This document shows positions 1 through 34,050 of a stretch of DNA of 53,268 bases, in pieces (within the stretch, counting starts at the first letter, position 1; each line of letters opens with the position of its first letter). The DNA comes from Candidatus Pacearchaeota archaeon. GTDB lineage: Archaea > Nanobdellota > Nanobdellia > Pacearchaeales > GW2011-AR1. The stretch lies in assembly GCA_017608305.1 (NCBI GenBank), contig JAFCGC010000002.1, positions 1 to 53,268 of the forward strand, in the 5' to 3' direction. The notes under the pieces were generated by a model. The model worked only from the letters and a program-made list of their open reading frames with translations, was not told the origin of the DNA and ran no database searches. The position numbers and the translations under genes were made by a program.

Positions 1-721
1 CCTTGGAAAACTTTTGTCCTAAAAAGTGTGTTGAAGGTTGTTGTAGTAATTTTGAGTCAGGCATTAATACATCTGAAGCGATTGAATAAACTGATCCTGG
101 AAAATGATCCCAATTTGGTCTTTTCATTACCAGAGAAGGAATTCCAAATTTCTGATGCATGACTTTTTCTGTTATTTGAATGTCTTCTTTAACTTGTTGT
201 TGTGCTTGTTTTTCTGTTGCAAAACAATCATGTCCTTCTATCCACATAAATTCTCTTGCTCGAATTAAGGGTCTTGTTGCTTTTGTTTCATATCTGAAAA
301 TATTTGCCCTTTGATACATTTTTAATGGAAGATCTCTCCATGATCTTATCCATATAGAATACATCTCATACATCGATGTTTCAGAGGTAGGTCTTAGTGC
401 TAATTTGTCTTCTCCTTTTATTTTTTCAAGCCAAAAAACATCTGGTGAAAATCCTTTAACATGAGAAGATTCTTTTTTGAAATTTTTTTCAGGAATTAAT
501 GTAGGAAAAAAACTTGGTTTGTGTCCTGTTTTTTGCATTTCTTCTTCATAGAGTTTATACATGTTTTCAATAGTCATTGCTCCCCACGGCCTTATTACTA
601 TGAATCCCTTAACTTTATTTCTTATGTCTGTGACTTCTGCTTTTTCAATAACTTGAGTATACCACTCACTAAAATTTGTTTCTTTTTTTGCGGTTATTCC
701 TTGAGTAGTTATTTTTTTCAT
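1..721 (-). CDS. proS: Proline--tRNA ligase (5' part of gene; runs off window start)
   Basis: Reverse-strand translation MKKITTQGITAKKETNFSEWYTQVIEKAEV...FIVIRPWGAMTIENMYKLYEEEM...RPTSETSMYEMYSIWIRSWRDLPLKMYQRANIFRYETKATRPLIRAREFMWIEGHDCFAT; class II ProRS motifs. Confidence 0.93.
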   Translation of the reverse strand, partial: MKKITTQGITAKKETNFSEWYTQVIEKAEVTDIRNKVKGFIVIRPWGAMTIENMYKLYEEEMQKTGHKPSFFPTLIPEKNFKKESSHVKGFSPDVFWLEKIKGEDKLALRPTSETSMYEMYSIWIRSWRDLPLKMYQRANIFRYETKATRPLIRAREFMWIEGHDCFATEKQAQQQVKEDIQITEKVMHQKFGIPSLVMKRPNWDHFPGSVYSIASDVLMPDSKLLQQPSTHFLGQKFSK

Positions 722-1578
722 ATTAATTCTTTTTCTAAAACATCTAAAGCAATTTCATTTACAGCATCTTTTAGATAATTGCTTTCGAGTGCAAATCCTA
801 GGCTTTCTCCTCCGCTTATTTTAAAATTGTTTATTCCAATGACTTTTCCTTGTTTGTCTATTAGTGGGCCACCTGAATTTCCTGGATTAAGAGCAGCATC
901 TGTTTGAATATATGCTTCTAATTGGCTAGGTCCGATTCTATGAACTCCTGAAACAATTCCTTCTGATACACTAAATTGTAATCCTAAGGGATTTCCTATT
1001 GCAATTACTTTTTCACCTATTTCTATATTATCTGAGTCTCCTAGGCTAAGTTCCTCAAAGATTCCTGGAATTTTTAATACTGCAATATCTAATCTCCCTT
1101 CATATCCTATAAATTCTGCTTCTAGAATTTCTTGCTCATAAGTTATTGCTTGAACTTTTTTTGCATCTACTAAAACATGGGCGTTTGTTAAAATATATCC
1201 ATCTTGGGTTATTAGAAATCCTGTTCCTTGGCCTACGTCTGTTCTTATTGTGACAACCCCTTTTACGGCATTTTCAATTATCCCAGAAAAATCCTCGCTT
1301 GCAGAGGCTTTTAATAAATCCATTTCCTGGCCAATTGACCCTACTTTTAAATTTAAAGTAGTGATTGTGCTTTCTAGGTTTGATTTAGTGTCTATTAAGT
1401 TGTCTGTTAGGGTATTTATGTTGCTTTCTGTATTTGTGACTCTTTGATCTAAAGAACCATATTGAACATTTTGTTTTATAAATAAAGTGTACATGAATAT
1501 TCCGCTGACTATCATAAAAACAAATACAATTGACCCTGCACTTCCAATTATGATCTTATGGTGTTTTTTAAGTGGCAT
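718..1578 (-). CDS. HtrA/DegP-like trypsin-family serine protease with N-terminal TM anchor
   Basis: GTGFLITQDGYILTNAHVL, DIAVLKI, NPGNSGGPLID motifs (His/Asp/Ser triad); N-terminal hydrophobic segment. Confidence 0.9.
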   Translation of the reverse strand: MPLKKHHKIIIGSAGSIVFVFMIVSGIFMYTLFIKQNVQYGSLDQRVTNTESNINTLTDNLIDTKSNLESTITTLNLKVGSIGQEMDLLKASASEDFSGIIENAVKGVVTIRTDVGQGTGFLITQDGYILTNAHVLVDAKKVQAITYEQEILEAEFIGYEGRLDIAVLKIPGIFEELSLGDSDNIEIGEKVIAIGNPLGLQFSVSEGIVSGVHRIGPSQLEAYIQTDAALNPGNSGGPLIDKQGKVIGINNFKISGGESLGFALESNYLKDAVNEIALDVLEKELI

Positions 1579-1657
1579 TGAAAACCTCCTGCGGGTTTTC
1601 GATCCAGCATCCTGGAGTTTCTTTTGATACCTCCTAGGGAAACTCGATGAAATCCTT
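1579..1657 (-). promoter_or_regulatory. Structured 5' leader (copy A): stem + possible pseudoknot + SD-sequestering hairpin upstream of the HtrA-like gene
   Basis: Reverse strand GAGTTTC...GAAACTC stem (1615-1621/1639-1645); loop GGUAUC (1626-1631) complementary to GAUGCU (1606-1611); GAAAACC-CGCAGGA-GGTTTTC hairpin (1580-1600) covering AGGAGG next to ATG. Similar copy at 33973-34050. Confidence 0.6.
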
Positions 1658-20145: not shown

Positions 20146-20274
20146 GTCCCCGTGGCTCAGTTGGTTAGAGCGATCGGCTGTTAAGGTTGAGAACATTTAG
20201 TTCACAAACTTGCTATGAAATCTTTTGATTTCACAGGAACCGATAGGTCGGAGGTTCGAGTCCTCCCGGGGACG
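20146..20274 (+). tRNA. tRNA-Asn (anticodon GUU) with about 55-nt intron after position 37 (about 20184-20238)
   Basis: GTCCCCG...CGGGGAC acceptor; GCTC/GAGC D stem; ATCGG-CTGTTA[intron]A-CCGAT; GGAGG-TTCGAGT-CCTCC T arm; intron contains TGAAATC-TTTT-GATTTCA hairpin. Confidence 0.9.
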
Positions 20275-33405: not shown

Positions 33406-33972
33406 TCATAATATGCTTTTGGGGTGGTCACAAGAAGGACATATTTCAGGAGGTTGAGTTCCATAAAATGTATAACCACACTCTCTGCATACCCACCAAA
33501 CTTCCTTTGATTTTTTAAAAAAAGTATCGTTTTTTACTTGTTCTAATAATTTTTTATATCTCTCTTCATGATTTTTTTCAGCAATTGCAATAGACCTTAA
33601 TCTTTTTGAAATTTCAGGTAAATTTTCTCTTTCTGTTATTTCTGCAAATTCTGGATACATTTTAGTGTGTTCATAATTTTCCCCATTAATTGCTGCTTGT
33701 AAATTGTCTTCTGTTGTGCTGTAAACAGTTGGTGCAACTGCTTCTACTGTAATTTCCTCATCAGCCTTTTTTCCTAGTTTTTTTTTGAGCTCTTGAATAT
33801 GTTCAAATAATCTTTTTGCATGAACTTTTTCTTGATCTGCTGTCAATAGAAATATTTCTGCTATTTGTTCAAATCCTTCTTTTTTTGCAATTTTCGCATA
33901 ATATGTATATCTATTACGAGCCTATGATTCACCTATGAATGCTTTTGTTAGGTTTTTTAGAGTTTGTTCCAT
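33406..33972 (-). pseudogene. Rubrerythrin with in-frame TAG at codon 17 (33922-33924)
   Basis: MEQTLKNLTKAFIGES*ARNRYTYYAKIAKKEGFEQIAEIFLLTADQEKVHAKRLFEHI...; conserved diiron and C-terminal rubredoxin (CRECGYTFYGTQPPEICPSCDHP) otherwise intact. Confidence 0.9.
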
Positions 33973-34050
33973 ATCAAAACCTCCTGCGGGTTTTAATGAA
34001 TCCAACATCCAAAGGAATCTTTTCTGATGCCTCTGATAAGATCCAAGTGA
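33973..34050 (-). promoter_or_regulatory. Structured 5' leader (copy B) upstream of rubrerythrin
   Basis: GGATCTT/AAGATTCC stem (34038-34044/34014-34021), loop GGCAUC (34026-34031) complementary to GAUGUU (34004-34009), AAAACC-CGCAGGA-GGTTTT SD hairpin (33976-33994). Confidence 0.6.

Follow-up and report, generated by a model that had tools for sequence, protein, structure and literature searches.

The structured leader that precedes a rubrerythrin gene in a 53,268-nt stretch of DNA from a Candidatus Pacearchaeota archaeon (hereafter the window) is probably one copy of a miniature, non-autonomous mobile DNA element of approximately 45-110 bp, which has spread in one DPANN (Pacearchaeota-type) family. 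The dispersal of the element, its structure, the duplications around it, the empty sites in related genomes and its position at start codons were observed directly. The constant part comprises a Shine-Dalgarno (SD) hairpin, with GGAGG in its loop and 3' arm, and an upstream GCN strand, whose pairing into this loop is supported by covariation. The element, which would be moved in trans by a putative enzyme, probably inserts into tRNA T-arms, tRNA intron positions and start codons, in many cases with about 10-25 nt of the target duplicated. At start codons, a gene with apparently leaderless relatives would gain a 5' leader that ends in an SD.

Two copies in the window

The window contains two copies, A and B, which share AAAACCCGCAGGAGGTTTT. 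Two exact matches were observed against a chance expectation of 0.01 in shuffles, and allowing up to three mismatches revealed no further match. The first-pass annotation had described this segment as identical in two similarly built leaders, and the parts follow the order that it gave: a stem, a GATGYT strand and an SD hairpin ending at the ATG. The outer stem differs in sequence between the copies, yet is perfect in both (GGATCTT/AAGATTC in B, GAGTTTC/GAAACTC in A). The suggested loop and partner strands, GGCAUC/GAUGUU and GGUAUC/GAUGCU, are literally complementary in the two window copies, with wobble changes between them. Thus far the earlier description was correct, and a structured, SD-bearing leader common to unlinked genes is real. 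Transcription of copy B is expected to start at approximately 34045-34050, as judged from the usual archaeal spacing between TATA box and start. The coordinates are listed in Table 1, which also includes a window tRNA gene with a likely canonical intron.

Table 1. Features of the window and tRNA-associated copies in other loci
Feature	Position	Strand	Remark
Shared segment AAAACCCGCAGGAGGTTTT	33976-33994; 1581-1599	-	exact in B and A
Copy B, promoter-like box CACCAAAATTTATTTAAA	34070-34087	-	BRE/TATA-like; common to the rubrerythrin relative of G007 (L231)
Copy B, long-form stem-loop	34015-34044	-	GGATCTT 34044-34038 / AAGATTC 34021-34015, loop ATCAGAGGCATCAGAA
Copy B, GGATGTT strand	34004-34010	-	equivalent columns covary in 111 distinct copies
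Copy B, SD hairpin	33973-33997	-	ATTAAAACC / GGTTTTGAT, loop CGCAGGA; outer pairs covary
Copy B, SD	33984-33980	-	GGAGG
Copy B, predicted tertiary pairs	G34006-C33986, U34005-G33987, U34004-A33982		
Rubrerythrin gene	33406-33972	-	PF02915 (Pfam); in-frame TAG 33924-33922
Copy A, whole	1580-1645	-	
Copy A, stem	1645-1639 / 1621-1615	-	GAGTTTC / GAAACTC
Copy A, GGATGCT strand	1612-1606	-	
Copy A, SD hairpin	1600-1580	-	
Copy A, predicted tertiary pairs	G1608-C1591, C1607-G1592, U1606-A1587		
Trypsin-like (HtrA-type) protease gene	718-1578	-	behind copy A; PF13365
tRNA gene	20146-20274		insertion of ~56 nt in anticodon region; without element
Sense copies in tRNA introns			L044 (Ile), L047 (Phe)
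Antisense copies in tRNA introns			L112 (Gln), L119 (Arg), L128 and L140 (Lys), L197 (Gly)
tRNA 3'-end duplications			L113, L120, L121, L122, L125, L129, L130, L136, L147, L095, L227

A dispersed family of short elements

The source genome (G000; 720 kb in 40 contigs) carries nine copies of the core CCCGCAGGAGG, and none of its reversed control. The motif model found about 125 copies, and almost none beyond the family of the source genome. Matches to the covariance model, which was built on a 47-nt core, occur in 29 of the 95 genomes sampled from this family, with a maximum of 13 per genome and a patchy presence among genera. At a stricter cut-off, 41 of 211 genomes of the order contain copies, and a search of 382 genomes of the phylum at E<=1e-7 returned matches in this family only; all of these are incomplete MAGs. 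Most other exact occurrences of the 19-mer fall in MAGs that bear the label Pacearchaeota or Nanoarchaeota; one labelled Micrarchaeota and one labelled Aenigmarchaeum each have a match, and five bacterial matches look like chance. The first copies were gathered by this exact 19-mer, so that apparent conservation is inflated in that subset.

The element occurs in two forms: a short form consisting of the core alone, and a long form with an additional stem-loop whose loop approximates YCRGAGGC..GAAA. Both window copies are of the long form. Within each of two genomes (G069 and G143), unlinked copies are 96-100% identical over about 77 nt. As in MITE-like elements, the family thus has dispersed, near-identical, non-coding copies with patchy presence, and target-site duplication is seen at many tRNA copies and weakly at gene copies. 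No description of the element was found in open-licence papers. A viral origin was considered and rejected: the full 19-mer and the short-form core had no match in viral contigs, and the 14 viral contigs that match a 17-mer form are all weak partial matches to the model.

Several variants were observed alongside. Tandem arrays of the element are present at L095, L149, L150, L123 and L225, some with periods of approximately 49-54 nt and some adjoining tRNA genes. A long-form copy of the source genome (L001, contig C1, ~1501-1590, minus strand) has an extra hairpin between its GGATGCTGGATCG strand and the SD hairpin. Another hairpin family, with the approximate sequence GGAAGTTTCATAAAAGAAACCATTGGTGTCTTTTATG, stands in tandem with the element upstream of SRP54 in G019 (L261) and in the L193-L208 arrays of G143 and G146. 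Like the element, it ends at a start codon, with GGTG as an SD-like motif, and it may be a sister element.

Conserved fold

The strongest couplings outside the SD stem, determined for 120 distinct copies, connect columns 13 and 36 (T-A 83, A-T 21, G-A 13) and columns 11 and 32 (G-C 112, C-G 7, T-G 1). In an Infernal alignment of 111 distinct copies, which was fitted to the stem and not to the two loop contacts, the contact pairs are GC 101, CG 7 and UG 1 for one and UA 73 and AU 21 for the other. With these contacts the structure contains 94.3% standard pairs in this alignment, versus 82.8% after shuffling and 37-53% in slid controls. None of 500 shuffles reached the observed covariation score or number of paired cells, and the observed values also exceed all slid controls, although the matches share ancestry and shuffles therefore overstate the significance. 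Judged from these aligned copies, the geometry is that of an H-type pseudoknot: the SD-hairpin loop is paired with the GCN strand upstream of it, and GGAGG spans the loop and the 3' arm. The additional stem of the long form is also real, because 21 different sequence pairs form it among the 24 long-form copies.

The pseudoknot of the first-pass annotation is a different one. Its six pairs are complete in both window copies, but in only four of the 24 long-form copies (L001, L008, which is copy A, L009, which is copy B, and L107; the pairing in L001, L008 and L107 was judged by eye). Of the six, the first three are, across the 24 copies, mostly invariant or formed with a wobble, and breaks are frequent in the remaining three. 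Compensation is not seen: in L133 and L148 the shared strand has changed from G to C with no matching change in the long-form loop, and both copies retain the contact with the loop of the SD hairpin. The tertiary pairing that is conserved joins the GCN strand to this SD-hairpin loop; both pairings use the same strand.

A conserved peptide as the source of the sequence conservation was rejected on two grounds. The linker between the two conserved blocks measures 12, 14, 15 or 16 nt, so that no reading frame is kept throughout, and what would be the wobble position of an Ala codon shows covariation with a base far away from it. The motif GCUGGAU resembles the 3' end of archaeal 16S rRNA.

Position at tRNA genes and start codons

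Fifty of 126 copies end immediately in front of the ATG of a same-strand ORF of at least 60 aa, compared with 4 in antisense orientation and 9.5 at random positions. A tRNA gene contains the copy or lies within 60 nt of it in 27 of the 126 cases, as opposed to 3.8% of positions in the same loci (p=3e-13). The tRNA-associated copies are of three sorts: within introns that follow the anticodon, directly beside tRNA ends, and behind duplicated tRNA 3' ends. In the third sort, the element stands behind an intact tRNA, and the last 17-25 nt of this tRNA, in most cases from TTCRAAT onwards, are repeated after the element. In the source genome itself, no copy was found in a tRNA. The tRNA adjoining L130 (in G025) is called tRNA-Pyl (CTA) with a 72-nt intron by ARAGORN, possibly a mis-call.

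Direct repeats around the insert (score >=12) were detected for 16 of 85 copies, two of which are tandem arrays and not simple duplications, and for none of 85 mismatched flanks; they are mostly tRNA 3' ends of 17-25 nt. Further flank duplications are present in a second set of copies. At gene copies the signal is weak (17.6% versus 7.5% in controls), and most of these, including both window copies, show no clear target duplication. Judged by eye, some tRNA copies have GGATTYGAA on the left and the matching TTCRAATCC on the right; no autonomous partner was found.

That the copies in tRNA introns and trailers keep this conserved loop could also be explained by a small-RNA or tRNA-processing function, in which a protein binds the hairpin and the intron and trailer copies act as sponges for the mRNA copies. 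We regard this as improbable: several intron copies are antisense, so their RNA would carry the wrong strand, and the target duplications do not require this function. Among proteins that bind GGA hairpins, CsrA is the best known; it was not found in the source genome and was rejected as the binding protein.

Empty sites and the rubrerythrin gene

Rubrerythrin is present in 34 of the 95 genomes. The element is absent from all 29 rubrerythrin relatives that were read, and the model finds none in those loci. In the relative from G007, CACCAAAATTTATTTAAAC is followed by the ATG 28 nt further on, and in the window the same box is followed by about 100 nt that include the element. SRP54 offers a second comparison: among the genes examined or scanned, only those of G146, G082 and G041 have the element. 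In G050, a sister species in the same genus as G146, the promoter CAACTTTATTAAC precedes the ATG at leaderless distance; G146 has an ATG at this same position, then approximately 50 nt of element and then the ATG of the gene.

The rubrerythrin gene of the window has an in-frame TAG at codon 17 (GES*ARNRY), where the 29 relatives have Gln or, in one case, Met. Reading TAG as a sense codon was rejected, since TAG terminates 8 of 50 long window ORFs and is probably a stop. A nonsense change or an error of assembly is therefore more plausible than recoding.

Downstream genes and regulatory readings

The genes behind the copies include those for the ribosomal proteins S10, S19, S3Ae, L44e, L37Ae and L11, for EF-1B, SRP54, MCM, ArgRS, NDK and NrdR, for the trypsin-like protease and rubrerythrin, and for an EF-Tu-type GTPase (aIF2-gamma by eye). 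They are mostly translation and housekeeping genes and not a stress set; we do not claim an enrichment of housekeeping genes, because these make up a large share of genomes this small. Because two unlinked genes share the leader, the first-pass annotation had suggested a small regulon, possibly for redox or envelope stress, in which the GGYAUC/GAUGYU pseudoknot would be the control element. The rubrerythrin and HtrA-type protease genes behind the window copies fit this proposal, but it is now largely refuted and scarcely credible. Besides the incomplete and uncompensated pairing described above and the lack of the element at every rubrerythrin relative read, the remaining downstream genes are diverse, and many copies sit in tRNA genes, some antisense and with target duplications. 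Enrichment upstream of stress genes, whose lack had been named beforehand as grounds against the proposal, was looked for and is absent.

A more general cis-regulatory RNA, either a translational riboswitch or a protein-bound leader with the long form as sensor, is also rather unlikely, even though it would account for the covarying stem and pseudoknot with the SD inside and for the sense orientation and spacing at start codons. In such a switch, the 5' half of the SD hairpin, GAUCUAAAACC, has a possible second partner in an upstream GGUUUUAUC, and the two competing folds would set translation on or off. A complementary upstream strand is seen by eye in several long-form copies (L041, L042, L053, L057), and such a strand competing for the 5' arm of the hairpin could make the long form a switch; however, the GGUUUU strand may be merely the 3' arm of a preceding copy. 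The fold is moreover kept where no gene follows, including the antisense copies in tRNA introns and those behind tRNAs, the genes have no common pathway, and orthologous genes lack the element. PreQ1-type riboswitches are likewise small pseudoknots that include the SD, but the element differs from them by its gene-free sites and diverse genes, and Rfam covariance models did not match the leaders, either at the gathering threshold or at E<=5. A single weak PreQ1 match, below its cut-off, lies in another part of L009. Against mobility, the recurrence of the element before SRP54, S19, S3Ae, L44e, MCM and EF-1B could also reflect conserved regulation.

Possible consequences for translation

An SD motif is present in 6 of 50 long window ORFs and missing from the other 44. 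SD motifs being uncommon here, a gene that is cut off from its promoter by an insert needs a new initiation signal, and the end of the element supplies GGAGG at SD distance. A short frame that begins with ATG, runs through the element and has its stop between -6 and +12 nt relative to the gene start was seen at 31 of 53 gene copies and at 12 of 76 others, a comparison between unlike sites; the stop often overlaps the gene start as TAATG or ATGA. The RNA hairpin would hold the SD back until unfolded; in many copies, the unfolding would be done by ribosomes on this short upstream frame, which would then restart on the gene. Neither window copy has an upstream frame that stops at the gene start; in copy B, the ATG inside GGATGTT is in frame with the gene.

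A mobile translation cassette is a tentative extension of the mobile-element reading. It would insert at or just inside the start codons of leaderless archaeal genes, which would be rescued by the SD and by a stop overlapping the new start; ribosomes on the upstream frame would open the pseudoknot and restart, and the element would be moved by an undescribed class of enzyme.

Candidate mobilisers and known mobile elements

Four candidate mobilisers were considered in these incomplete genomes and rejected. Cas1 is above the cut-off in 6 of 95 genomes, none of them a high-copy genome; a Y1 transposase was not found in G025, G069, G078 and G082, each of which has several copies; some high-copy genomes lack reverse transcriptase, and some lack tyrosine integrase. 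None of the four tracks copy number.

REP/REPIN sequences, which are moved by RAYT (TnpA-REP) transposases (PMC3116915, PMC8266576), are similar in being short, non-coding palindromic repeats with many extragenic copies, tandem arrays and no gene of their own. They differ in that our element has an SD and a pseudoknot, sits at start codons and tRNA genes and is flanked by target duplications of 17-25 nt. Its presence in genomes in which no Y1 transposase was found also separates it from REP/RAYT and IS200/IS605-derived elements. Casposons share the archaeal hosts, the insertion at tRNA 3' ends and the long, variable target duplications (1-27 nt, median 15; PMC4046053). However, casposons are large and carry Cas1, PolB and terminal inverted repeats, whereas the element is non-coding, spans 45-110 bp and is found in many copies in genomes where Cas1 is absent. 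The transposable tRNA introns of Thermoproteales, as far as they are covered by the citation of Fujishima 2010 in PMC4090602, resemble it in that similar sequences were repeatedly gained inside archaeal tRNA genes. In comparison with this account, most element copies lie outside tRNAs, and copies also occur before start codons and in antisense orientation.

Implications

The element is a warning that repeated structured leaders are not necessarily regulons. The family provides a concrete case of how SD-bearing 5' leaders can arise in archaea that mostly initiate without an SD (44 of 50 long window ORFs), and it points to a putative mobilising enzyme in DPANN archaea with a preference for tRNA genes and start codons.
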